Shown: in pieces, positions 3,501 to 40,116 of the stretch
Numbering within the stretch: the first letter of the stretch is position 1
Layout of the letters: every line of letters begins with the position of its first letter
From: Massilimicrobiota sp. An134
Lineage (GTDB): Bacteria; Bacillota_I; Bacilli_A; Erysipelotrichales; Coprobacillaceae
Reading direction: 5' to 3'
Length of the DNA: 46,722 bases
Assembly (NCBI RefSeq): GCF_002160815.1
Contig: NZ_NFLH01000018.1
Span: forward strand, 1-46,722
The notes under the pieces: model-generated
What the model was told of the DNA's origin: nothing
Seen by the model: the letters and a program-made list of their open reading frames with translations, nothing else
Databases searched by the model: none
Program-made: the position numbers and the translations under genes

Positions 3501-3611
3501 ATTTAGGCAAATGTGCATTTTATTTATTACAGACATAGGTGTTCTATAAACTTCTCTTGTGTTTTGATATAAAAATGCATTTTATATATCTATATGGGGA
3601 GGGATGAAAAC

Positions 3612-4082
3612 ATGAAGATCATCTATGATGAAAATGAACAAATGAATCATCATGAATTAAAACTTGTTTATCATCCCAAAAACAAAAAATTAGCACAGCT
3701 TTTATTAAAACAATTTACTGAAAATTTAGGTGAAGTTGAACTCTATGATGAATACCATAATAAATATTATGTCCCCCTTTTGGCTATATACTATTTTGAA
3801 ATGGTAGACCAAAAGTTTTATGCCTATACTGAAAAAGATGTCTATCGTATTTATTGTGTGAAAATGGAACGCTTAAAACAGCGGGTACAGGATTATGGCT
3901 TTTATCAGATTAATGTGCGGACACTTGTGAATATCAGACATGTGAAAACTTATAAAATTCAAAGAGGGAGTCGGCGTAGAATTATTCTTGATAATGATGA
4001 TATTTTAATTTCCAGTCGGCATTATAAGCCGGAGTTTGATCGTTTAGAACATGATCTTAAACATGGTGAAATTGAAATATAA
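3612..4082 (+). CDS. stand-alone LytTR-domain transcription regulator
   Basis: A 156-residue protein with a C-terminal LytTR DNA-binding domain (about residues 50-150: the YxVPLLxIYYFE start, then INVRTLVNIRHV and the basic RRRIILDNDD strand) and no receiver domain. Such proteins act as dedicated transcription factors, often with a small membrane partner (DUF3021), which is absent here. An ATG at 3594 opens the frame but overlaps the GGGGAGGG ribosome site; the ATG at 3612 has that site at normal distance. The upstream region carries three phased TGTMGAA repeats that resemble LytTR sites. It is the first gene of a cluster holding three more LytTR regulators. Confidence 0.85.
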   Translation: MKIIYDENEQMNHHELKLVYHPKNKKLAQLLLKQFTENLGEVELYDEYHNKYYVPLLAIYYFEMVDQKFYAYTEKDVYRIYCVKMERLKQRVQDYGFYQINVRTLVNIRHVKTYKIQRGSRRRIILDNDDILISSRHYKPEFDRLEHDLKHGEIEI

Positions 4083-4680: not shown

Positions 4681-4770
4681 ATTATACACTACGAAGATTT
4701 GCTTTAGGTAAATTCATCATAATTTCAACTCTTTTGTCATTCGACAATTCTCGACAAATTTCTACAAATT
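4681..4770 (-). promoter_or_regulatory. XRE-gene control region with three phased TGTMGA repeats
   Basis: On the minus strand a perfect TATAAT (4686-4681) lies ahead of the XRE gene with only a poor -35 box. Further upstream three 10-bp units occupy 4741-4770; on the plus strand they read TCGACAATTC, TCGACAAATT and TCTACAAATT, i.e. TGTCGA/TGTAGA on the minus strand. The weak -35 box plus an upstream site fits an activator-dependent promoter. The activator could be any of the neighbouring LytTR proteins (inference). Confidence 0.5.
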
Positions 4771-4823
4771 GGCATAAAAATGACCAAAAATGGGAGAAAA
4801 GTGGACTGATTTCTCATTGCAAA

Positions 4824-4851
4824 TTGACTACAATAAAATTATCAAGATAAT
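4824..4851 (+). promoter_or_regulatory. promoter of the tandem REC-LytTR genes
   Basis: TTGACT (4824-4829), 16 bp, then GATAAT (4846-4851), placed 21 bp ahead of the start codon at 4873. Confidence 0.55.
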
Positions 4852-4872: not shown

Positions 4873-5622
4873 ATGAACATTGCTGTATGTGATGATCAGC
4901 TGGATTATTTAAACTTGATTAAGAAAAAGCTTATTGAATGTTTTCATGAACCAGAAATGGAATTAAATGTTTATACTTTTTCTACAATTCAAGAGATGCT
5001 GTATAGTACAAAATTTCGTTGTTATGAATTTGCATTCATTGAAATGAAAGTCGAAAATGATCGTGGTATTGAAGCAGCTTATCGATTAAGAGAACTGAAT
5101 CGTGCCTGTCAGGTTGTCTTTATTAGTGATCAATATTATCACATTCATGAAGCATTTGCGGTAAAGGCAAGGGAATATTTACTAAAACCCATTAATACAA
5201 AGCAATTTCAAAGTGTTTTTGATTATTTAATGGATTGGTATTTGCATCAAAATGTCAAATTTGTCATACCCATTAGAGAATTAGGACGTAAACGTATTTT
5301 TGATGTTGATGAAATCAAGTATTTTGAAACTTATTATAATGATTTAGAAATTGTAACGGTGGATGATCAGCATTTCATGACACATGTTAAAAATCGTTAT
5401 AAGTTACGACCAGTATTAAAGTCACGATGGTTTATGCAAGTGAATCAAAGTGTTTTAGTGAATATGAAATGTATTGATTTTTTAACGGATCGTAATGTTA
5501 TTTTAAAATCAAGGGAAGTCTTTCCGACAAGTCGTAAAACATTGATACAAAATCATCTTTTATTTGAAAAATTTTTAAAAGAAAAAGAAGAAAAAGAAAA
5601 ATTAAGGAATGGGGAGAAATAA
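4873..5622 (+). CDS. LytTR response regulator with Glu in place of the phosphoacceptor Asp
   Basis: A 249-residue protein with an N-terminal receiver domain (1-115) and a C-terminal LytTR DNA-binding domain (about 130-235). The receiver has the acidic pocket D7-D8 and the conserved Lys (LLKPI), but position 57 is Glu (FIEMK), where the two neighbouring regulators have Asp (YLDIEL, FLDIEL). Phosphorylation by a kinase is therefore unlikely, and Glu can mimic the phosphorylated state, so it may be constitutively active or respond to something else (inference). GGGGAGAGGG precedes the ATG. The next regulator gene starts 1 bp after its stop, so the two are co-transcribed. Confidence 0.88.
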   Translation: MNIAVCDDQLDYLNLIKKKLIECFHEPEMELNVYTFSTIQEMLYSTKFRCYEFAFIEMKVENDRGIEAAYRLRELNRACQVVFISDQYYHIHEAFAVKAREYLLKPINTKQFQSVFDYLMDWYLHQNVKFVIPIRELGRKRIFDVDEIKYFETYYNDLEIVTVDDQHFMTHVKNRYKLRPVLKSRWFMQVNQSVLVNMKCIDFLTDRNVILKSREVFPTSRKTLIQNHLLFEKFLKEKEEKEKLRNGEK

Positions 5623-5623
5623 A

Positions 5624-6337
5624 TTGAGAATTGCGGTGATAGATGATGAAACATTTTACATTCAAGATGTTTATTCAAAAATAGAAAATTTTAAACAGTC
5701 ATTTCATGATATAGATATTGAGGTTGATACATTTACTCAAGGAAAGGAATTTTTAGATAGTTTTGAGGAACATCCATATGATTTGATTTATTTAGATATT
5801 GAATTAAATGATATCAATGGTGTTCATTTAGCTCATATGATTCATGAGAAAAAAGCTTCAACAATGATTATTTTTATGACAAGTCATATGAGTTATATAC
5901 ATCAGTCTTATGTTGTTAATGCTTTTCAATATCTGACAAAACCATTAAAAGATCCACTTTTTACATATGAATTGAAAAGAGCTATCAAACATTATCAATA
6001 TATGCAAAAAGCTTTTGTATTTCCAACTTCACAAGGACGTATTATTTTTAATCTATCAGAAATTATATATTTAGAAACAGCTTATAAAAATTATAAGATT
6101 CATACAACACGTGGTGTATATTATGGTTCTTTAAAAGCTGTCAATAGTATTAGAAAAGCATTGTTAGATTATACGTTTGTTAAAATTCAAAGAAGTTTTA
6201 TTGTGAATATGGAACATATTGTCAAAGTTGATAACATATTATTATATATGTCAGATGAAAGCATGCTGATGGTTTCAAAGAAACGCTATAAAGAGTTTAA
6301 AAGAAGATTCTATCAATTTCTAGCTGATAAAAAATAA
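5624..6337 (+). CDS. LytTR response regulator (AgrA/VirR type)
   Basis: A receiver domain with intact acidic pocket (IDDE) and phosphoacceptor D58 (YLDIEL), followed by a LytTR DNA-binding domain, 237 residues in all. The ATG at 5609 overlaps the upstream gene and lies inside the GGGGAG ribosome site. The TTG at 5624 sits 7 nt behind that site and gives the usual N-terminus (RIAVIDDE), so it is chosen. No kinase gene lies on this strand; the closest histidine kinase is convergent at 6360-7637. It may pair with that kinase or dimerise with the Glu57 regulator made from the same transcript (inference). Confidence 0.88.
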   Translation: MRIAVIDDETFYIQDVYSKIENFKQSFHDIDIEVDTFTQGKEFLDSFEEHPYDLIYLDIELNDINGVHLAHMIHEKKASTMIIFMTSHMSYIHQSYVVNAFQYLTKPLKDPLFTYELKRAIKHYQYMQKAFVFPTSQGRIIFNLSEIIYLETAYKNYKIHTTRGVYYGSLKAVNSIRKALLDYTFVKIQRSFIVNMEHIVKVDNILLYMSDESMLMVSKKRYKEFKRRFYQFLADKK

Positions 6338-6362
6338 GACCATTTTTGAGTCTTATTTTTTA
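6329..6362. terminator. bidirectional terminator between convergent genes
   Basis: AAAATAAGAC (6331-6340) pairs with GTCTTATTTT (6350-6359). T runs on both strands make it usable by the regulator gene on the plus strand and by the kinase gene on the minus strand. Confidence 0.8.
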
Positions 6363-7637
6363 TTTTTGTAAGACAACTCTTAAAATAACTTGATCATGCT
6401 TTACTTCATATTTGGCTTCACCATGATAGCGTTCTGCCATTTCTTTAATACTGCTAACACCAAATCCATGAGCAATTTTATCTTTTTTACTTGTTTTATG
6501 AAAAGTTGGATGACTTCCTTCTGGAATAGAATTTTCAATATAAAGAATCACATGTGTCTGTTTGCTTTGAAGCTTTAATGAAATATGTTTTTCACCATCT
6601 ATGTTCTCACATGCTTCTTTGGCATTATCTAATGCTAAACTGATAATTAAAGCTAAATCACCAGGAACAATACTTCCTAAATGTAATATTTTAGAAATAT
6701 CTTCATCATATTGAATACCCTTTTCTTTAATACTTTGAATATGAGCATTCAATGCACCATCAATCGCTGCAATACCAGTATGTGTTAATGCCTGATATGC
6801 TTCAACATGTGTTTTTAAGTTCTGTTCAATATAATTCTTTGCTTCTTCATATTCTTCTTTTTCCAAATGTGATTGTAAAATAATTAAGATGTTATTGAGA
6901 TTATGGTTAATCTTTCTAATCTCTTTTTGTTGTTGTTCTCTTTGTTGGTTAAATTCTTTTTCTTTCTCCAAGTTCTGTATAATAGATTCTTGTAAATGCT
7001 TATCTTTTTCATATTTCGTTTGCATTCTATCAAAACATATTAATGCAATAATGCTGATCATGACAGTGAAGATGTAAGTACGGGCAATTGTGGGTATGAA
7101 AAATAATACATTATTATTTAAGATAAAAGTTAAACTAAAATATGTAAATACTAGGATATATAAATTTTTAAATTTTCTTAAGTTGTTAATTCCTTTTAAT
7201 TTAAAAGAGAATAAGGTATATGAAAGAAATTTTGAAATACAATGGACAAAAATAAAATGTGAAGTTGAGAAATCAGTATAGTTTATTGCAACTCTTGTAT
7301 CGAAAATCCAAGAAATAAATAATGTTGTTATACAAAATATAAACCAATTAATAATAATAAATATACTGATTTGTTTAATGAAATTAATCGTAGAAACTTT
7401 CCATTTATGAAAAAGTAATGTTAAAATTATGAAAGTTAAAGCATAAATAATAATATTAATTTTTATATTAGTTGATAACGTTAAACCGATAAATACAAAA
7501 GTATATAACAAATAACACATATTTTGGGCTTTGTCTTGATAGATATTATGATAGATATTTTTTAAATAAAAATCTAATAATAATATATCTAAAATGGCAA
7601 TAAAGGCTTTACAAAATAGATTTAATACAATTGTCAT
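6360..7637 (-). CDS. AgrC-like membrane sensor histidine kinase (GHKL)
   Basis: A 425-residue HPK10-type kinase. Residues 1-205 form about six membrane helices, followed by a charged coiled-coil linker (205-240). The H-box INHNLNN contains H245, the usual phosphorylation site, and the C-terminal GHKL ATPase has the N-box LALDNAKEACE and the G-box HGFGVSSIKE. This layout is that of peptide-sensing kinases such as AgrC and ComD. Its start is 3 nt behind the stop of the regulator gene at 7641-8354, so the pair forms one operon. No AgrB or AgrD gene is near; the ligand is unknown. The small secreted protein divergent to the operon is a candidate partner or output (inference). Confidence 0.88.
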   Translation of the reverse strand: MTIVLNLFCKAFIAILDILLLDFYLKNIYHNIYQDKAQNMCYLLYTFVFIGLTLSTNIKINIIIYALTFIILTLLFHKWKVSTINFIKQISIFIIINWFIFCITTLFISWIFDTRVAINYTDFSTSHFIFVHCISKFLSYTLFSFKLKGINNLRKFKNLYILVFTYFSLTFILNNNVLFFIPTIARTYIFTVMISIIALICFDRMQTKYEKDKHLQESIIQNLEKEKEFNQQREQQQKEIRKINHNLNNILIILQSHLEKEEYEEAKNYIEQNLKTHVEAYQALTHTGIAAIDGALNAHIQSIKEKGIQYDEDISKILHLGSIVPGDLALIISLALDNAKEACENIDGEKHISLKLQSKQTHVILYIENSIPEGSHPTFHKTSKKDKIAHGFGVSSIKEMAERYHGEAKYEVKHDQVILRVVLQK

Positions 7638-7640
7638 AAA

Positions 7641-8354
7641 TTACATCTCCTTATCTATAAAATTAAAATATTTTTCTTTGAATTCTTTGCGAATTCGTTT
7701 CGTTAATGGGAGAATATCATCATTGGTCATTGTGATGTAGTCAAAACAGAATGATTTGACATGTTTAAAATTAATGATGATACTTCGATTGAGTTGGAAG
7801 AAATGATATTCTAGTAATTGTTGTTTGGATTTCGTTATGGTTTTAAGATTACCAAAATAATGATGTTTGGTTGTTTTTAACTTGTATTTACCATAACTTG
7901 TTTCTAGATAGAGAATTTGATCAGTTTTAATATAAACCTTTCCCTCAGTTGTCGAAAATAATACTGTACGATTTAAACGCTTATAAACCTGATTTGCATG
8001 ATGAAGTTCTCTTTGAAATAATTTTTGATCAATAGGCTTATCAATAAATAAATCAGCTCCAATCCACATAGATTCAGGTAAATAATAGTGATATGCTGTA
8101 ATAAAAATAAAAATACAATTTGCTTTGATATCTTTAATCATTTTAGCTAATTCAATACCATTTTGAGAGTTATCAAGCTCAATGTCTAGAAAAACAAGAT
8201 CATAAGGTTCAATTCTAAATGCATCAATTAATTCATTACCTTTTGTATATCCATCTATGATGGTGGGCTTTGTGTCATGAAACTCATAGTTTTTAATCCT
8301 TTCCATAATATTTTGTACATAAAATAATTCGTCGTCACATATTGCGATACGCAT
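7641..8354 (-). CDS. LytTR response regulator paired with the AgrC-like kinase
   Basis: A 237-residue protein with receiver (ICDDE pocket, phosphoacceptor D57 in FLDIEL, Lys in FIDKPI) and a LytTR domain (about 135-235). First gene of a two-gene minus-strand operon with the kinase. The ribosome site AAGGAGGT is strong. TGTC/TGTA/TGTC motifs phased at 10 bp lie directly ahead of it (8371-8395 region), suggesting autoregulation. It is divergent from the secreted-protein gene at 8523, whose promoter it may control. Confidence 0.9.
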   Translation of the reverse strand: MRIAICDDELFYVQNIMERIKNYEFHDTKPTIIDGYTKGNELIDAFRIEPYDLVFLDIELDNSQNGIELAKMIKDIKANCIFIFITAYHYYLPESMWIGADLFIDKPIDQKLFQRELHHANQVYKRLNRTVLFSTTEGKVYIKTDQILYLETSYGKYKLKTTKHHYFGNLKTITKSKQQLLEYHFFQLNRSIIINFKHVKSFCFDYITMTNDDILPLTKRIRKEFKEKYFNFIDKEM

Positions 8355-8370
8355 AATTTCTACCTCCTTT

Positions 8371-8396
8371 TTGACAACTATCTACATTATATGACA
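8371..8396 (-). promoter_or_regulatory. phased TGTC/TGTA/TGTC motifs at the regulator promoter
   Basis: On the minus strand TGTCATATAA, TGTAGATAGT and TGTCAAAAAG follow one another at exact 10-bp steps and end at the ribosome site. A TATAAT box is embedded between the first two motifs, so a protein bound here would cover the -10 region. Weaker match than the sites at 3463 and 4741. Confidence 0.35.
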
Positions 8397-8427
8397 AAGA
8401 TTTTTATATCAGAAAAAATACCCAAAG

Positions 8428-8456
8428 TGTGCATTTTTATAGTTAAAATATGCACA
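8428..8456. promoter_or_regulatory. dyad operator-like sequence in the divergent control region
   Basis: TGTGCATTTT and AAAATATGCACA form an inverted repeat between the divergent regulator and secreted-protein genes. TGTGCATTTT also occurs ahead of the stand-alone LytTR gene (around 3512-3521). It looks like a protein-binding site; the binder is unknown. Confidence 0.4.
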
Positions 8457-8522
8457 AATTTTATATATAGAATAACTTTTTTGAGTATTTTGGTAGACTA
8501 TTGTCGAAAGGAGGTGAGGGTT

Positions 8523-8954
8523 ATGTCAATCCAAAAAAAGGTTATGGCGTTAGGTTTAAGTTTTCTTGTTTTAGGAGGAACAATGACTTCAGCTTTAGCT
8601 TATGTATATGAACAAGGAACAAGATATCAAACGGTGACACACAGAAATATTCCTGCTTGGGGAGGAGAACATTTTGATACAACTTATGGAAGTAAAAAAA
8701 CTATGACAAGTCAAATTGGTACATTTAAAAAGACACATGGGGATGCAGCTTTAGGAAATTATGCTGAGTTAGTAGATATAAATAAAAATTATAAATCTAA
8801 TCTTGTAGGAATTCCTTTAGATAGAATGATTCTTGTGAATGAACATGGATGTAGTAAAGGAACAGTATATTTTACCTGTGTAACATCTCACAATTTTGAA
8901 CCTAGCAATACTTGTGATGTCACTTTGAAGTTTAGTGCAGACAATTTGTACTAA
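8523..8954 (+). CDS. small secreted protein of unknown function
   Basis: A 143-residue protein with a clear signal peptide (basic MSIQKK, hydrophobic LGLSFLVLGGTM, cleavage likely after SALA at residue 26). The exported part is rich in Thr, Gly, Tyr and polar residues and has three Cys near the C-terminus (EHGC, FTC, NTC), so it probably folds as a beta-rich domain. The signal peptide resembles those of lactococcin 972-like and DUF2712-type secreted proteins, but I cannot place the body in a family. The frame is open from 8391, but AAAGGAGGTGAG at 8507-8518 fixes the start at ATG 8523. TTGTCGAAAG, a LytTR-like half site, overlaps the ribosome site. Likely output or signal of the adjacent kinase/regulator pair (inference). 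Confidence 0.75.
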   Translation: MSIQKKVMALGLSFLVLGGTMTSALAYVYEQGTRYQTVTHRNIPAWGGEHFDTTYGSKKTMTSQIGTFKKTHGDAALGNYAELVDINKNYKSNLVGIPLDRMILVNEHGCSKGTVYFTCVTSHNFEPSNTCDVTLKFSADNLY

Positions 8955-33612: not shown

Positions 33613-33839
33613 GATGTTTGCTACAATAAGTTTTTCTAAATGTTGATAGATAAGTATTTAAAGGAAACAGAATTTGCTAAATAGTAGATATAAGTCAAAA
33701 TACTTTAGCAAAACTTTCTAGAAATGAATTTGTATCAATGGAATTATTTATCAAAATTTTTAGAGGCTTAAATTGTACAGTTGACGATGCATTAGAAATC
33801 TTACTAACAAAAAGAGAGGATGATGATAGTGGCAAGTAA
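33613..33839 (+). pseudogene. broken XRE-family regulator ahead of hsdM
   Basis: In two frames the DNA reads YNKFF*MLIDKYLKETEFAK, then, after a one-base loss near 33681, DISQNTLAKLSRNEFVSMEL followed by FIKIFRGLNCTVDDALEILL and a short tail ending at 33839. That is a complete small HTH regulator (the SYNKLWKMLIDK... type common in Firmicutes) inactivated by a stop codon and a frameshift. Its end overlaps the hsdM start by about 10 bp, so it was the first gene of the operon and probably its regulator. Intact copies may exist in related strains. Confidence 0.75.
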
Positions 33840-35334
33840 TAATGCAAATATTGGATTTGAAAAACAAATATGGGATGCAGCTTGTGTTTTATGGGGTCAC
33901 ATACCCGCTGCCGAATATAGAAAGGTTATAGTTGGATTAATATTTTTACGTTATATTTCAAGTGCCTTTGAGAAAAGGTACAATGATTTAGTCAAGGAAG
34001 GATATGGGTTTGAGGATGATAGAGATGCCTATATTGAAGAAAATGTTTTCTATGTTCCTGAAGAAGCAAGATGGGAACAAATATCGTCAGCTGCACATAC
34101 TCCAGAAATAGGTAAAGTTATTGATAATGCTATGAGGGCAATTGAAAAAGAAAATAAAACTTTGAAAAATGTGCTTCCAAAAAATTATGCAAGTCCTGAT
34201 CTTGATAAAAGAGTATTAGGAGACGTTGTTGATTTATTTACTAATATGGATATGGGAAACACAGAAGAAAGTAAAGATTTATTAGGAAGAACATATGAAT
34301 ATTGTATACAACAATTTGCTGCATATGAAGGAGTAAAGGGTGGTGAATTCTATACACCGTCAAGCATTGTTAAAACGATTGTTGAAATTTTAAAACCATT
34401 TGATAATTGTAGAGTATACGATCCGTGTTGTGGATCTGGGGGAATGTTTGTCCAAAGTGTTAAATTTTTACAGGCTCATAGTGGAAATAGAAATCATATT
34501 TCTGTTTATGGACAAGAGTCAAATGCTGATACTTGGAAAATGGCAAAAATGAATATGGCTATTAGAGGAATAGATGCAAATTTTGGGCCTTATCATGCAG
34601 ATACATTTTTTGAAGATTTACATCCAACTTTAAAAGCCGATTTTATTATGGCAAACCCACCTTTCAACTTATCAAATTGGGGGCAGGATAAATTAAAAGA
34701 TGATAAACGTTGGAAATTTGGTATTCCACCTGCTGGAAATGCAAACTTTGCTTGGATTCAACATATGATACATCATTTAGCGCCAAATGGGAAAATTGGT
34801 TTGGTTCTAGCTAATGGCGCATTATCATCACAGACGTCGGGTGAAGGAGAAATACGTAAAAATATTATTGAAGCTGATCTTATAGAAGGAATAGTTGCTC
34901 TACCTCCTCAATTATTTTATAGTGTTACAATTCCCGTTACTCTTTGGTTTATATCAAAAAATAAAAAACAAAAAGGAAAAACGTTATTTATAGATGCTCG
35001 TAAAATGGGACATATGGTAGATAGAAAACATCGTGATTTTGACGATGAAAAAGACATAAAAAAACTTGCAAATATATTTGAAGAATTTCAAAATGGAACA
35101 TTAGAAAATGTAAAAGGTTTCTGTGCTGTTGTAGAAACAGAAGAAATTAGAAAACAAGATTATATTTTAACTCCTGGCAGATATGTAGGAATTGAACAAC
35201 AAGAGGATGATGGAGAACCCTTTGATGTTAAAATGCAACGTTTAACTTCTGAATTATCTGACATGTTTGAAAAATCTCATGAATTAGAAGAAGAAATACG
35301 TAAGAAGTTAGGAGTCATTGGATATGAAATATAA
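33829..35334 (+). CDS. hsdM: Type I restriction-modification methyltransferase subunit HsdM
   Basis: Adenine-N6 methyltransferase subunit of about 501 residues. An HsdM N-terminal helical domain (FEKQIWDAACVLWGHIPAAEYRKVI...) is followed by the SAM-binding motif DPCCGSGGMF near 197-206 and the catalytic NPPF near 276. ATG codons at 33820 and 33823 are in frame, but AGAGAGG ends at 33819; GTG 33829, 9 nt away, gives the family N-terminus MASNN. It modifies the site named by HsdS and, with HsdR, restricts unmodified DNA. The stop overlaps the first hsdS start. Confidence 0.93.
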   Translation: MASNNANIGFEKQIWDAACVLWGHIPAAEYRKVIVGLIFLRYISSAFEKRYNDLVKEGYGFEDDRDAYIEENVFYVPEEARWEQISSAAHTPEIGKVIDNAMRAIEKENKTLKNVLPKNYASPDLDKRVLGDVVDLFTNMDMGNTEESKDLLGRTYEYCIQQFAAYEGVKGGEFYTPSSIVKTIVEILKPFDNCRVYDPCCGSGGMFVQSVKFLQAHSGNRNHISVYGQESNADTWKMAKMNMAIRGIDANFGPYHADTFFEDLHPTLKADFIMANPPFNLSNWGQDKLKDDKRWKFGIPPAGNANFAWIQHMIHHLAPNGKIGLVLANGALSSQTSGEGEIRKNIIEADLIEGIVALPPQLFYSVTIPVTLWFISKNKKQKGKTLFIDARKMGHMVDRKHRDFDDEKDIKKLANIFEEFQNGTLENVKGFCAVVETEEIRKQDYILTPGRYVGIEQQEDDGEPFDVKMQRLTSELSDMFEKSHELEEEIRKKLGVIGYEI

Positions 35335-35863
35335 CACATATACGATGGCTGATGTTTTAGAAGTAATTATTGATTATAGAGGTAAAACTCCAAAAAAATC
35401 AGAAAAGGGTATACCAACATTAAGTGCTAAAACTATTAAAAATGGATATATTGATTATTCAAAATGTTATTATATTTCATCTGATGAATATAAAAAATTT
35501 ATGGTTAGAGGTTTTCCTAAAAAAGGAGATGTTTTATTAACTACCGAAGCACCTCTTGGGGAGGTTGCTAAATTAGATAGGGATGATGTGGCAATTGCAC
35601 AAAGGTTATTAACTTTACGAGGGAAAAAAGGTATTTTAGATAACGATTATTTGTTGTATTTTTTACAATCTCCAAATGGACAGTATTTATTAAAATCTAG
35701 AGAATCTGGAACAACAGTTACAGGTATTAAACAAGCAGAGTTTAGAAAAATACAATTAGAGATTCCTGAGTTTGCAATTCAAAAGAAAATATCATCTGTA
35801 TTATGTATATTAGATGACAAAATTAAACTGAATAATCAGATAAACAATAATTTAGCTTATTAA
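35324..35863 (+). CDS. hsdS: truncated specificity subunit HsdS (5' half, one target domain)
   Basis: A 179-residue HsdS half: one target-recognition domain (YNTYTMADVLEVIIDYRGKT... to FRKIQLEIPEFAIQ) and the central helical repeat ILDDKIKLNNQINNN, then stop. Full HsdS has two such domains (about 400 residues). The frame ends right behind the 16-bp inversion repeat at 35840-35855, and its natural second half lies inverted downstream (35860-36525). So this is the expressed stub of an hsdS gene in the OFF orientation. A half subunit can sometimes work as a dimer; that is not decided here. ATG 35324, with TTAGGAG upstream, overlaps the hsdM end. Confidence 0.85.
   Translation: MKYNTYTMADVLEVIIDYRGKTPKKSEKGIPTLSAKTIKNGYIDYSKCYYISSDEYKKFMVRGFPKKGDVLLTTEAPLGEVAKLDRDDVAIAQRLLTLRGKKGILDNDYLLYFLQSPNGQYLLKSRESGTTVTGIKQAEFRKIQLEIPEFAIQKKISSVLCILDDKIKLNNQINNNLAY
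35840..35855 (+). repeat. hsdS inversion repeat, copy a
   Basis: ATAAACAATAATTTAG, within the central repeat region of the first hsdS. Direct orientation. Confidence 0.8.
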
Positions 35864-36570
35864 ATTTCTACTCTTGAAACATCAATATCACCTGACATTA
35901 ACTTTGACAACAAGGAATCACGCAACTCTTTTAAGTATGTATTCTCATAATATGACGATTGTATTTTTTCCAACATTGGTAATATGACATCGTTAAATTC
36001 TTTTGCTACTTTTAAAGATGGAATTGAGATTTCCATATCTCCTAATCCTCCATCCCATATAGCATATGGCATAGTGGAACCTTTTGAAGTTGTCTGTGCA
36101 TATTCGATGCTACTATCTAAGTCACAACAAAGCAAACAATATGAAAGGTATTCAGGATTATGTGGCACTAATGTAAAACAAGTTGTCCTTGTAATTCCAT
36201 CACAAGGAGCTAAAACAACACGGTGAAAATACACACGCATTGCACCAATGATAATGTCATTTTTTGAAAATGTTACTAAACTGCTTTTTGCCTCTTCGTT
36301 AAGTTTGAATTCTGAGATTGCGAACGTTTTCATTGGTATTACATCAATTGGAAGATATGGTAACTCTGTGTTTTGTCCAGCTTTGATTGAGTTGCGTTTC
36401 AATTTTAAAATATCTTTAAGTTGACCCGTTCTCCAATCTATGGGCATTACGCCACCAAAAGGTTCAAAATCGATAAACCAAGACTTATAAAGAGCTCGTG
36501 CTTGCTGCTCTAAATTATTGTTTATATATGTAAAACTCTTGTGAGTGGCAAGAGTTAATAAGAAGAACAA
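35860..36570 (-). CDS. silent inverted hsdS cassette (C-terminal half)
   Basis: On the minus strand a reading frame carries the second half of an HsdS: INNNLEQQARALYKSWFIDFEPF, a target-recognition domain and the C-terminal repeat LRDSLLSKLMSGDIDVS. It has no start of its own that makes sense; the first dozen codons are read-through from the flank, and the homology starts at the inversion repeat (36510-36525). Inversion between the repeats at 35840 and 36510 would fuse it in frame to the first hsdS to give a full two-domain subunit. Stored, not expressed, in the present orientation. Confidence 0.82.
   Translation of the reverse strand: MFFLLTLATHKSFTYINNNLEQQARALYKSWFIDFEPFGGVMPIDWRTGQLKDILKLKRNSIKAGQNTELPYLPIDVIPMKTFAISEFKLNEEAKSSLVTFSKNDIIIGAMRVYFHRVVLAPCDGITRTTCFTLVPHNPEYLSYCLLCCDLDSSIEYAQTTSKGSTMPYAIWDGGLGDMEISIPSLKVAKEFNDVILPMLEKIQSSYYENTYLKELRDSLLSKLMSGDIDVSRVEI
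36502..36525 (-). repeat. hsdS inversion repeat, copy b
   Basis: On the minus strand ATAAACAATAATTTAG is followed by AGCAGCAA. The 24-bp unit is shared with copy c; the first 16 bp are shared with copies a and d. Inverted orientation. Confidence 0.8.
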
Positions 36571-36606
36571 CCACTCTCTATGTGTTCTCGAAAAAGGAGA
36601 ATATAT

Positions 36607-37593
36607 ATGAATGAAATTATAAAAAATATGATATTACATGATATGGTTACATGTTTAGATGATAATCAATATGAAAAATTAAATTGCATACTTATAAAAG
36701 TATTGTCTAATTACCAAATTGAAGAGATTCAAAGTGCAACAAATGACAAAACGAATCAACACTATATAGATTCATTTTTATCAGCCAAAAGATTAGAAGG
36801 ATGCTCTGAAAAATCACTTAAATATTATAAATCAACTATTGAAATAGTACTTAATTCAATAAATAAATCTATTAAAAATGTTACAACTAATGATTTAAGA
36901 GATTATTTAACACAATATCAGGAAGAACATGGATCAAGTAGAGTGACAATTGATAACATACGACGAATATTATCTAGTTTCTTTTCTTGGTTAGAGGATG
37001 AAGATTTTATTATAAAAAGTCCTGTTAGAAGAATACATAAGGTTAAATCTGCTTCTGTTATTAAAGAAACGTATAGTGATGAATCATTAGAATTAATGAG
37101 AGATAATTGTGATAATTTGCGAGATTTAGCTTTAATTGATATCTTGGCTTCAACTGGGATGCGTGTTGGTGAATTAGTGTTGTTAAATAAAGATGATATT
37201 AACTTTAATGAAAGAGAATGTGTTGTGTTTGGTAAAGGTGATAAAGAACGTATCGTTTATTTTGATGCTAGAACAAAAATACATTTACAAAATTATTTAA
37301 ATAGTCGAAATGATGATAATAAAGCATTATTTGTTACTTTAAGAAAGCCATTTAATCGTATTACCATTAGCGGGATAGAAACAAGAATTAGAGAGATGGG
37401 GAGAAAATTAGATATCCATAAAGCTCATCCTCACAAATTTAGAAGGACGTTAGCAACAAAGGCAATTGATAAAGGAATGCCCATTGAACAATTGCAAAAA
37501 TTATTAGGGCATCAAAAGATTGATACAACATTGCAATATGCAATGGTTAAGCAAAGTAATGTAAAAATCGCACATAAGAAATATATTGGATAG
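36607..37593 (+). CDS. tyrosine recombinase, probable hsdS invertase
   Basis: A 328-residue XerC/D-type site-specific recombinase. An N-terminal core-binding SAM-like domain (about 60-150) is followed by the catalytic domain with STGMRVGEL (first Arg), HPHKFRRTLAT (H-x-x-R), LLGHQKIDTT (second His) and the nucleophile Tyr in TLQYAMVKQ. It lies between two hsdS segments flanked by inverted copies of one 16-bp sequence, the usual place for the enzyme that inverts hsdS cassettes. AAAAAGGAGA fixes the start at 36607 rather than the ATG at 36580. Its end abuts the next hsdS gene. Confidence 0.9.
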   Translation: MNEIIKNMILHDMVTCLDDNQYEKLNCILIKVLSNYQIEEIQSATNDKTNQHYIDSFLSAKRLEGCSEKSLKYYKSTIEIVLNSINKSIKNVTTNDLRDYLTQYQEEHGSSRVTIDNIRRILSSFFSWLEDEDFIIKSPVRRIHKVKSASVIKETYSDESLELMRDNCDNLRDLALIDILASTGMRVGELVLLNKDDINFNERECVVFGKGDKERIVYFDARTKIHLQNYLNSRNDDNKALFVTLRKPFNRITISGIETRIREMGRKLDIHKAHPHKFRRTLATKAIDKGMPIEQLQKLLGHQKIDTTLQYAMVKQSNVKIAHKKYIG

Positions 37594-37603
37594 GGGGATT
37601 TTT

Positions 37604-38797
37604 GTGAAAGATTGGATAACTTGTAAACTATCAGATTTAGGTATGATAGTAGGAGGTGCTACACCATCAACTAAACAAATACAGAATTATGAAAATGGAA
37701 ATATTTCTTGGATAACGCCAAAAGATTTATCTTGTTTTAAGGACAGATATATTGATAGAGGAGAAAGAAATATAACAGAATTAGGATTAAAAAGTTGTTC
37801 AACTCGATTGATCCCTAAAAATTCAATACTTTTTTCTTCACGAGCACCTATAGGCTATATTGCAATTGCTAATAAAGAATTATGTACTAATCAAGGATTT
37901 AAAAGTATAGTTCCTAATGAGAACATAGATTATTTATTTTTGTATTATCTATTAAAGTATAATAAAAGTAATATAGAAAATATAGGAAGTGGTACTACAT
38001 TTAAAGAAGTATCAGCAACTGTAATGAAGCATTTTGAAGTGAAAATTCCTAAATCAAAAAATGAGCAAAGAAAAATAGCATCAATATTAGATTTAATAGA
38101 TAATAAAATTGAATTGAATAATAAGATAAACAATAATTTAGAGCAGCAACTCTGTGCAATATTTAAAGAATTATTCTCTGAATATATTGATTCGCTTACT
38201 GAATCAAGTACAACTCTTGGTGATTTAGTTACAAGTATTGATAACAGGGGAAAAACACCCCCTCTGTCATCTGAACCAACAAACTATCCAATTATTGATG
38301 TAAGAGCACTTTCAGGTACATCAAGAATTGTTGATTATAATAACTGCACAAAATATGTCTTAGAGGAAACTTATAATAGTTGGTTTAGAAGTGGTCATCC
38401 TAAACCTTATGACATTCTTATTTCAACAGTTGGAAGTCTTGCTGAAATGAAAATATATCTTGGTAATATCGGCTGTATCGCTCAAAATGTTGTAGGTTTT
38501 AGAAGTAAAGGAATATCTCCTTTATACATATATCAATACCTAAATTATATAAAAAATGACTTAGTCTCATATAATATTGGTTCTGTACAACCAAGTATAA
38601 AGGTTACACACATTGTAAAACATCCTATATATGTGCCTTCAGAAGAAAAATTAAATTCTTTTGACATAATTGCTCGTGCAATGACAGAAGAAATTTATTC
38701 TAATTCTAAAGAAATAGAAAAACTTAAACTCCTAAGAGACACTCTTTTACCAAAATTGATGTCTGGTGAAATTGATGTTTCCGACATTGAGTTTTAA
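37604..38797 (+). CDS. hsdS: full-length specificity subunit HsdS
   Basis: A 397-residue S subunit with two target-recognition domains: first about 1-165 (LSDLGMIVGGATPSTKQ, NGNISWITPKDL), the central repeat LDLIDNKIELNNKINNNLEQQ, second about 200-370 (TTLGDLVTSIDNRGKTPPLS), then the C-terminal repeat LRDTLLPKLMSGEIDVS. The two domains read the two halves of a split recognition site. GTG 37604 follows AGGGGG by 6 nt. The inversion repeat runs through its centre (38126-38141) and a reversed copy lies just behind its stop, so this is the currently assembled (ON) cassette. Confidence 0.92.
   Translation: MKDWITCKLSDLGMIVGGATPSTKQIQNYENGNISWITPKDLSCFKDRYIDRGERNITELGLKSCSTRLIPKNSILFSSRAPIGYIAIANKELCTNQGFKSIVPNENIDYLFLYYLLKYNKSNIENIGSGTTFKEVSATVMKHFEVKIPKSKNEQRKIASILDLIDNKIELNNKINNNLEQQLCAIFKELFSEYIDSLTESSTTLGDLVTSIDNRGKTPPLSSEPTNYPIIDVRALSGTSRIVDYNNCTKYVLEETYNSWFRSGHPKPYDILISTVGSLAEMKIYLGNIGCIAQNVVGFRSKGISPLYIYQYLNYIKNDLVSYNIGSVQPSIKVTHIVKHPIYVPSEEKLNSFDIIARAMTEEIYSNSKEIEKLKLLRDTLLPKLMSGEIDVSDIEF
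38126..38149 (+). repeat. hsdS inversion repeat, copy c
   Basis: ATAAACAATAATTTAG followed by AGCAGCAA, in the central repeat of the full hsdS. Direct orientation. Confidence 0.8.
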
Positions 38798-38801
38798 GCC
38801 G

Positions 38802-38817
38802 CTAAATTATTGTTTAT
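38802..38817 (-). repeat. hsdS inversion repeat, copy d
   Basis: CTAAATTATTGTTTAT on the plus strand, 4 bp behind the hsdS stop codon. Its outer flank (GTATGTAAC) resembles that of copy b (ATATGTAAA), showing that both cassettes have the same architecture. Confidence 0.8.
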
Positions 38818-38856
38818 GTATGTAACTTTATAATAGATATGGAAGGAGGGAGATCA

Positions 38857-40116
38857 ATGGAAAATAAAGATTCTAATTTGGGTTATGGTATCGAAATCAC
38901 TTCAGTTGGTGCATTTATTGATGTAATAAAAAAATTGAGAAGTGATGAAGATGGATCATCTACGGAAATTTACTTTAGAGGACAAGAAGTAGATTTCTGG
39001 GGAATAGTACCTAGCGTTTTCAGAAATGATATGCTCAGTGTTGAACATAAGCTTATGAGAATTCCATTACAAAAAAATCCTTTTGATTTTAGAGATTTGA
39101 ATGATACTTTTGATATCATGACAAAATATCAACATTATGGCATGTGTACTAGGCTACTTGACCTTACCACAAATCCACTGGTTGCTTTGTATTTTGCATG
39201 TAAACTTCATGGTAAAATTAGATATCAAGATGAGGAAAAAGAACCAAACGGGGTTGTGTATTTTGCTAAATATTATCCTTCGCAAGTAAATGATATTAAT
39301 GTTAGAATTGTTACCACTTTAGCTAAATATAATTTAGATAGAGAAAATACAATTAAGGATGTTTTAGATAAATTAGTTAAAGAAAATATTATAAGTAATG
39401 ATAACAGAAAAAAGTGGTTAGAAAAGGAACATATAAAAGAATTTATTGATATTATCCAAAGTAATTACTTGATTATTCCAACTTATAGTAATGAAAGATT
39501 AAAAAAGCAAAGTGGAGTACTATTGTTAGTTAGTTCATTTACTGTTGAAATTAATGATGCGGTTGAGAAGGGAATTATCACAAAGAGTTCAAGAAATTTG
39601 AGAAGTGAATTTGATGATAACTACTTTTATGTGCTAGGTGAAAATAAAAACTTAATTCTTAAAGAACTTGATTTATTGGGAATAAATGAGTCAACCTTAT
39701 TTCCAGAATTGGAACATCAATTAAGTTATATTAAATTTATCCATCAAGATCAAACACATCCTGTTAGTGATTTTCATCAATATGAAGAGAATTATAAAAA
39801 TATAATTGACTATGAAAATGTTAATGAAGAAATATTAAATAAAGAGTTTATTACTGAAATAGAAAAGTTTTTATCTACTTGTTTAGATAAAAATGAGTGC
39901 AAGAGTATTTTAGAAATTGTTAAAGATAATTTAGTAGTTGATTGGTATAAAAGAGAAAATATACGAAGCAAGATTAGGAGAAGCATTAGTACCTATTGTT
40001 TATCAAGTGTAAATCTGTTGAATGGAAAAAATCCTGAATTTTTAGTTGACAATATAATGAATATTATGAATGAGTTAATAAAAAAGCATATGATTAACAA
40101 TGAGAATGGAGAATAG
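38857..40116 (+). CDS. FRG-domain protein
   Basis: A 419-residue protein with an N-terminal FRG domain: IYFRGQEVDFWGIVPSVFR near residue 38-56 and YQHYGMCTRLLDLTTNPLVALYFAC near 90-115. FRG proteins recur in defence and mobile regions; their activity is not firmly established. GGAAGGAGGG places the start at ATG 38857 (the frame is open from 38839). The gene is inserted between hsdS and hsdR, with the hsdR start 1 bp behind its stop, so it is co-expressed with the restriction system and may modify it or act as a second line of defence (inference). Confidence 0.85.
   Translation: MENKDSNLGYGIEITSVGAFIDVIKKLRSDEDGSSTEIYFRGQEVDFWGIVPSVFRNDMLSVEHKLMRIPLQKNPFDFRDLNDTFDIMTKYQHYGMCTRLLDLTTNPLVALYFACKLHGKIRYQDEEKEPNGVVYFAKYYPSQVNDINVRIVTTLAKYNLDRENTIKDVLDKLVKENIISNDNRKKWLEKEHIKEFIDIIQSNYLIIPTYSNERLKKQSGVLLLVSSFTVEINDAVEKGIITKSSRNLRSEFDDNYFYVLGENKNLILKELDLLGINESTLFPELEHQLSYIKFIHQDQTHPVSDFHQYEENYKNIIDYENVNEEILNKEFITEIEKFLSTCLDKNECKSILEIVKDNLVVDWYKRENIRSKIRRSISTYCLSSVNLLNGKNPEFLVDNIMNIMNELIKKHMINNENGE

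Follow-up and report, generated by a model that had tools for sequence, protein, structure and literature searches.

The locus and its receiver pocket

The window, the whole stretch of 46,722 nucleotides analysed here, has a GC content of 29.6%, and the genome to which it belongs (2.56 Mb) holds 12 LytTR matches. A cluster of regulatory genes lies within its first 9 kb (Table 1). One of them encodes a LytTR response regulator, with a receiver fold in its N-terminal part and a LytTR domain in its C-terminal part, which matches the Pfam families Response_reg (E 1.1e-8) and LytTR (E 2.5e-7), both above the cut-off. The closest named record comes from a Massilimicrobiota metagenome assembly and shares 87% protein identity. 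Residues 51 to 59 of the protein read YEFAFIEMK and place a glutamate, E57, at the phospho-acceptor position; we refer to it as the E57 regulator. An earlier note on this DNA had described this glutamate and the aspartates of the two neighbouring LytTR regulators, and the sequence reads as it said: RR2 carries its aspartate in YLDIEL (position 58 if translation starts at the TTG at 5624, 63 if it starts at the ATG at 5609) and RR3 carries D57 in FLDIEL. The pocket of the E57 regulator is otherwise whole, with the acidic pair D7 and D8 and the switch lysine K105 (in K-P-I), both of which the note had also pointed out, and with S85, the serine that follows beta-4. A receiver-like domain without at least one of the residues D, DD, T and K has been defined as a pseudo-receiver, and as aspartate-less when D is missing (PMC12632262). 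Judged by its residues, the E57 regulator belongs to both categories.

Table 1. Genes and sequence features of the E57 regulator locus (positions in the window)
Feature	Position	Strand	Remarks
Small XRE-type HTH regulator, divergent, 79 aa	4421..4660	-	Orthologue in 13/14 E57-regulator genomes
Upstream half of 21-bp-period direct repeat (AAAAATGACC), putative LytTR site	4776..4785	+	Only significant genome match
Downstream half of direct repeat (AAAAGTGGAC)	4797..4806	+	Abuts -35-like hexamer
Putative -10 (TACAAT)	4829..4834	+	Read from anchored promoter alignment
Pseudo-receiver LytTR response regulator (E57 regulator), 249 aa	4873..5622	+	Pfam domains, AlphaFold model, PDB match
Codon 57, GAA, Glu at phospho-acceptor position	5041..5043	+	
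Codon 86, GAT, Asp at T+1	5128..5130	+	Acidic in 13/14 orthologues
LytTR DNA-binding domain of E57 regulator	5296..5541	+	Pfam
LytTR regulator RR2, canonical Asp, probably co-transcribed	5624..6337	+	TTG start, or ATG at 5609
GHKL-type histidine kinase, convergent	6360..7637	-	Pfam; least conserved gene of locus
LytTR regulator RR3, canonical Asp	7641..8354	-	Upstream of kinase in kinase operon

A single base separates the reading frames of the E57 regulator and RR2, which share a strand, and a Shine-Dalgarno-like sequence is present, so that the co-transcription with a normal regulator proposed previously is likely. With a glutamate at position 57, and with the kinase located on the opposite strand in an operon with RR3, the E57 regulator does not qualify as the cognate partner of the neighbouring kinase.

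Several other genes of the window and of its genome deserve mention. A LytTR protein of 162 aa that stands alone, with no receiver (3594-4082), adjoins an SNF2-like gene in all five genomes of the genus. A probable secreted protein with no Pfam match (8391-8954) lies between RR3 and a CBS-domain-like gene; it is conserved beside an RR3-like gene in genera g1, g15, g19 and g16, and the lengths of its homologues suggest that translation really begins at the ATG near 8523. Two further LytTR proteins, L099:4558-5199 (G000:C45) and L101:5494-6114 (G000:C15), have N-terminal halves that Pfam does not recognise as receivers, and each follows a gene without a Pfam match that by eye encodes a membrane protein. 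The region 33820-40116, examined by eye in translation, looks like a type I restriction-modification island with a methylase-like gene, several specificity-like ORFs on both strands and a recombinase-like gene (36580-37593), an arrangement that suggests a shufflable specificity gene.

Orthologues, position 57 and conserved neighbours

Searches covered 43 genomes from the family and, at E values up to 1e-15, 315 from the order. They recovered 14 orthologues of the E57 regulator (window included) from 6 genera, all within the family of the window. Identity to the window protein is 87-94% within its own genus (g1, n=5), 74-76% in g15 (n=1) and g19 (n=2), 49% in g5 (n=1), 30-37% in g11 (n=4) and 29% in g3 (n=1). 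In a tree of 61 LytTR regulators the 14 sequences group together in a single clade (SH-aLRT 100), and RR2 and RR3 are sisters (SH-aLRT 98) outside it; the tree was built with a quick method and contains several long branches, including that of the g3 sequence (G006), so its deep placements are weak. The possibility that the E57 regulator originated as a duplicate of RR2 was rejected on this quick tree, in which RR2 groups with RR3 and not with the E57 clade.

Position 57 is occupied by Glu in nine of the 14 orthologues, by Asp in two, and by Ser, Ala and Gly in one each. The glutamate bearers are the five g1 sequences, the g15 sequence, both g19 sequences and G006. In the eight orthologues from g1, g15 and g19, D7, D8, S85 and K105 are all intact and Glu57 is invariably present; its codon is GAA in all eight, and there is therefore no synonymous change at this site to show its mutability. 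The five orthologues with another residue at position 57 each lack at least one other pocket residue. This includes both Asp57 bearers, G008 and G022, which have replaced D8 with Lys or Gln, G022 having also lost the Ser and Lys positions. G006 retains Glu57 and has lost the rest of the pocket. Since every one of the 14 lacks at least one of the five canonical receiver residues, all of them are pseudo-receivers. The earlier note had asked whether Asp prevails among orthologues, as expected of a recent change; with Asp in just 2/14, both without the second pocket acid, that objection falls. A recent mutation or a sequencing error at codon 57 was likewise rejected, given Glu in the window, four congeners and three sequences from two other genera. 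As read from these alignments, Glu57 is a natural feature that is both fixed and old.

Of 47 further LytTR receivers sampled across the family and the order, 40 carry Asp at this position. Note that this sample consists of loci returned for their resemblance to the query or to LytTR, is non-random and includes orthologues of RR2 and RR3. Six of the 53 aligned loci had been set aside: L012 (the query), L001, L002 and L009 (no receiver in frame), L004 (N-terminal half unrecognised) and L087 (wrong frame picked). The seven receivers without Asp comprise L011, L027, L029, L030 and L037, which belong to one further pseudo-receiver family, and the glutamate bearers L006 and L064. This second family of LytTR pseudo-receivers, seen at L098:3467-4180 (G000:C12) as well as L027, L029, L030 and L037, occurs in 5/5 genomes of the genus. 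Its members have Gly or Ser in place of Asp and Gly in place of Ser/Thr, and no kinase adjoins the gene in the genome of the window.

A second change affects the pocket. The residue that follows the switch serine (T+1), D86 in the window, is acidic in 13 of the 14 orthologues, the exception being a Lys in G023. Among the 40 Asp-bearing LytTR receivers sampled, it is acidic in one (L050), which also lacks the Ser/Thr; a Fisher test on these counts takes no account of relatedness among the sequences and is given no weight here. By alignment, where canonical relatives have Asp and a small or polar residue, the E57 regulator has Glu57 and the acidic D86. A review has suggested that a branched T+1 residue may hinder phosphorylation in BldM (PMC12632262), and by analogy an acid at this position may do the same. 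The same pair of Glu and acidic T+1 was observed in an independent Glu-type LytTR regulator, L064 (L100:6230-6916, G040:C11), which reads FLEMDL.

The neighbourhood separates a constant from a variable part. The XRE gene divergently adjoins the E57 regulator in 13 of the 14 genomes, adjacency in G021 being taken from coordinates; no XRE orthologue was found at E values up to 1e-15 in G006, where the contig starts 389 bases before the E57 gene. Among the 29 remaining genomes of the family, one (G028) has an XRE orthologue, which is not adjacent to an E57 regulator. RR2 directly follows in 11 of the 14 loci and retains its Asp in 10 of these 11. It is absent downstream of the orthologues of G021 and G023, and in G008 the contig ends at this point. 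Past RR2, the loci of g1, g15, g19 and G006 continue with a convergent GHKL kinase, 26-67% identical to that of the window where matched, and then with RR3 where the contig allows. Thus, the XRE gene and the E57 regulator make up the constant unit and the kinase branch its variable surroundings.

Substitution patterns were compared with pairwise Nei-Gojobori counts, in which dS exceeds 1 in many pairs and ratios are consequently rough. Between the window and G002, the receiver half of the E57 regulator is 0.93 identical (dN 0.031, dN/dS 0.023), compared with 0.76 for RR2 (dN 0.173, dN/dS 0.31) and 0.77 for RR3 (dN 0.129, dN/dS 0.125). Against G027, the corresponding identities are 0.68, 0.53 and 0.50. 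Overall, in the genus of the window, g15 and g19, neither half of RR2 or RR3 is as constrained as the corresponding half of the E57 regulator, whose LytTR half is more conserved than its receiver half in all eight pairs compared. Deeper in the clade the receiver erodes. The stronger purifying selection that acts on the E57 receiver relative to both neighbours indicates that it is not decaying.

A direct repeat in the promoter

Promoter alignments were anchored on an A-rich heptamer beside a -35-like TGA, which was present in 12 of 13 upstream regions (G021 gave no anchor match). In all 12, a TANNAT hexamer lies exactly 25 nt past the repeat heptamer, and it is because of this fixed distance that we assign the promoter. 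A second reading of the promoter is possible in the genus of the window, with TTGACT at 4824. A generic scan for promoters and terminators was uninformative, since it returned 11 promoter-like sites against 14.6 expected and did not pick out the putative -10.

When the 9-mer at the anchor was compared with sequence upstream in nine promoters (G002, G004 and G032 excluded as near copies, and G021 without an anchor), the copy at a distance of 21 bp matched on average at 6.67 of 9 positions, compared with at most 4.78 for other offsets from 9 to 35. Repeats spaced two helical turns apart are usual in the LytTR family. The tandem LytTR domains of the ComE dimer bind two direct repeats (PMC12482169). 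Within the window the repeat scores 29.6 and the next best site 17.4. Genome-wide, a profile of 10 sites returned the gene's own promoter as sole significant match (E 7e-4), followed by a site at 0.6, so that no further target in the genome was significant with this profile; since the promoter was itself part of the model, its score is not independent and it is the absence of others that counts. A wider regulon was considered and rejected, the repeat pattern matching 7 times in the genome versus 9 for the reversed control. The single significant repeat, located at the gene's own promoter, points to local autoregulation of the E57 regulator.

The repeat is still present in G008, G020, G022 and G023, whose orthologues lack Glu57, and the g11 and G008 orthologues without Glu57 keep their XRE neighbour. 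Taking the clade as a whole, the circuit therefore does not require the glutamate. Furthermore, the repeat is retained in G023 in the absence of RR2, which makes the E57 regulator the likelier binder. In the part of the intergenic region nearer the XRE gene (about 4690-4730), and at the same place in relatives, inverted repeats of the form TTCGCAA-N12-TTGCGAA were seen by eye; they are clearest in G020, weak in the window, and could be an XRE operator.

Mode of action and alternative readings

The AlphaFold model of the E57 regulator, computed with a 14-row alignment, has a mean pLDDT of 87.2 and a pTM of 0.60. Its closest PDB fold by Foldseek is full-length ComE (4cbv, E 1.8e-14), and the ComE D58E receiver (4mld) ranks sixth. 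Full-chain TM-scores are only 0.44-0.48 with rmsd above 10, and the two domains are therefore placed differently than in the PDB matches.

Receivers in which Glu replaces Asp are already known, among them CmrT and the engineered ComE D58E. The best-studied aspartate-less receivers carry other output domains, and most of those described are orphans. As a group (ChxR, RitR and others) they share with the E57 regulator the missing Asp, for which Glu is the commonest replacement (26%; PMC4395418). The accessible text of the open-access literature on atypical or aspartate-less LytTR receivers, and on the regulators of this bacterial group, yielded no characterised LytTR pseudo-receiver. The E57 regulator brings the acidic T+1 and the XRE partnership as features of its own.

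The likeness to ComE D58E of Streptococcus pneumoniae extends to the fold, the residue change and its position, the LytTR output and the direct-repeat target, which is putative for the E57 regulator. The combination of Glu with Thr/Ser and Lys that would mark such a phosphomimetic is present as E57, S85 and K105 in 8/8 close orthologues. However, ComE D58E was engineered, and wild-type ComE has an Asp and the ComD kinase. The substitution is reported to raise the level of dimer about 70-fold over the wild type (PMC6010298) and to permit constitutive competence, and the D61E form of the LytTR regulator CdtR is described as partly active (PMC12482169). CmrT of Clostridioides difficile is one member of the co-transcribed pair of Asp- and Glu-bearing OmpR-family regulators of CmrRST. 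It resembles the E57 regulator in its natural glutamate (E53) and the retained T/S and Lys, it is co-transcribed with the Asp-bearing CmrR as the E57 regulator probably is with RR2, and it differs in its OmpR-type output, DGD in place of DD, and a kinase in the same operon (PMC12548384). The E57 regulator has instead a LytTR output, which sets it apart from pairs of the CmrR/CmrT type. Its DD is intact and its T+1 residue acidic, an XRE gene diverges from its own gene, and the kinase closest to it is encoded on the opposite strand.

We favour, with a probability of about 0.58, the reading in which the E57 regulator is a true pseudo-receiver LytTR factor that is phosphorylation-independent, probably constitutively dimeric, controlled by dosage and part of a local autoregulatory circuit. 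Its receiver would no longer be phosphorylated at the usual site, and Glu57, together with S85 and K105, would hold it as an active-like dimer in the manner of ComE D58E. This dimer would bind the 21-bp-period repeat at its own promoter, and its activity would depend not on a kinase but on how much protein autoregulation and the XRE regulator allow to be made. RR2, the GHKL kinase and RR3 would make up a separate, fast-evolving and phosphorylation-dependent branch, which the E57 regulator may modulate. Confidence differs among these components. From its residues, we hold with high confidence that the regulator would act independently of phosphorylation. That it is active as made is held with moderate confidence, constitutive activity being plausible by analogy with ComE D58E and CmrT, and that Glu57 alone would cause the activity is held with less than moderate confidence. 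The grading follows from the small effects of replacing the natural glutamate compared with the active ComE D58E: in ChxR it can be replaced without loss of DNA binding (PMC4395418), and E53A in CmrT is reported to lower toxicity only slightly (PMC12548384).

The earlier note had linked co-transcription to heterodimers or a constant basal activation. Pairing of the E57 regulator with RR2, which would bias RR2 towards constant basal activation or alter its phosphorylation, fits the position of RR2 directly downstream in most loci and its conserved Asp. Moreover, CmrR and CmrT co-purify and a heterodimer model has also been proposed for them (PMC12548384), and wild-type CdtR together with a D61E copy gave more target expression, for which the authors consider a functional heterodimer (PMC12482169). 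The E57 orthologues of G021 and G023, however, stand alone without an adjoining RR2, which argues against this as a function of the whole clade; the quick tree also places RR2 nearer to RR3 than to the regulator with Glu57, and RR2 evolves much faster than the latter. We consider this reading unlikely. It is decidedly unlikely that the receiver has become a new sensor, with the acids D7, D8, E57 and D86 binding a metal or reacting to pH, or with C23 and C79 as redox-responsive residues. These residues, along with S85, K105, C6 and C200, are invariant in the eight close orthologues, whose first 120 residues include only 58 invariant ones, and ligand- or disulphide-regulated pseudo-receivers are known (PMC12632262), but C6 is also found in many canonical LytTR regulators of the sample and some of the acids are missing in G008, g11 and G006. 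Finally, the piecewise loss of the pocket in distant orthologues (g11, G006) might suggest a dead or dominant-negative receiver, in a gene that decays or whose product only competes with RR2 or RR3 for DNA, a reading rendered highly improbable by the strong constraint on both halves described above and by the lack of any internal stop across the eight close orthologues.

A more far-reaching version of the favoured pseudo-receiver reading, which we regard as quite unlikely, is that of a two-gene divergent switch inherited as a unit within one family. An XRE repressor would face a permanently-on pseudo-LytTR activator, the acid-rich pocket (D7, D8, E57 and D86) would lock the latter on or sense metal or pH, and the kinase branch would be a later, dispensable attachment.

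A 2025 review calls the on/off switching of pseudo-receivers a mystery and treats the idea that a natural glutamate might serve as a built-in phosphomimic as a hypothesis (PMC12632262). The clade of the E57 regulator provides a natural series in this respect, in which Glu is kept where the pocket is whole and the position varies where other pocket residues have been lost, and its engineered counterpart, ComE D58E, has a solved structure. The contributions of Glu57 and of the acidic T+1 could be told apart by comparing members of the clade.
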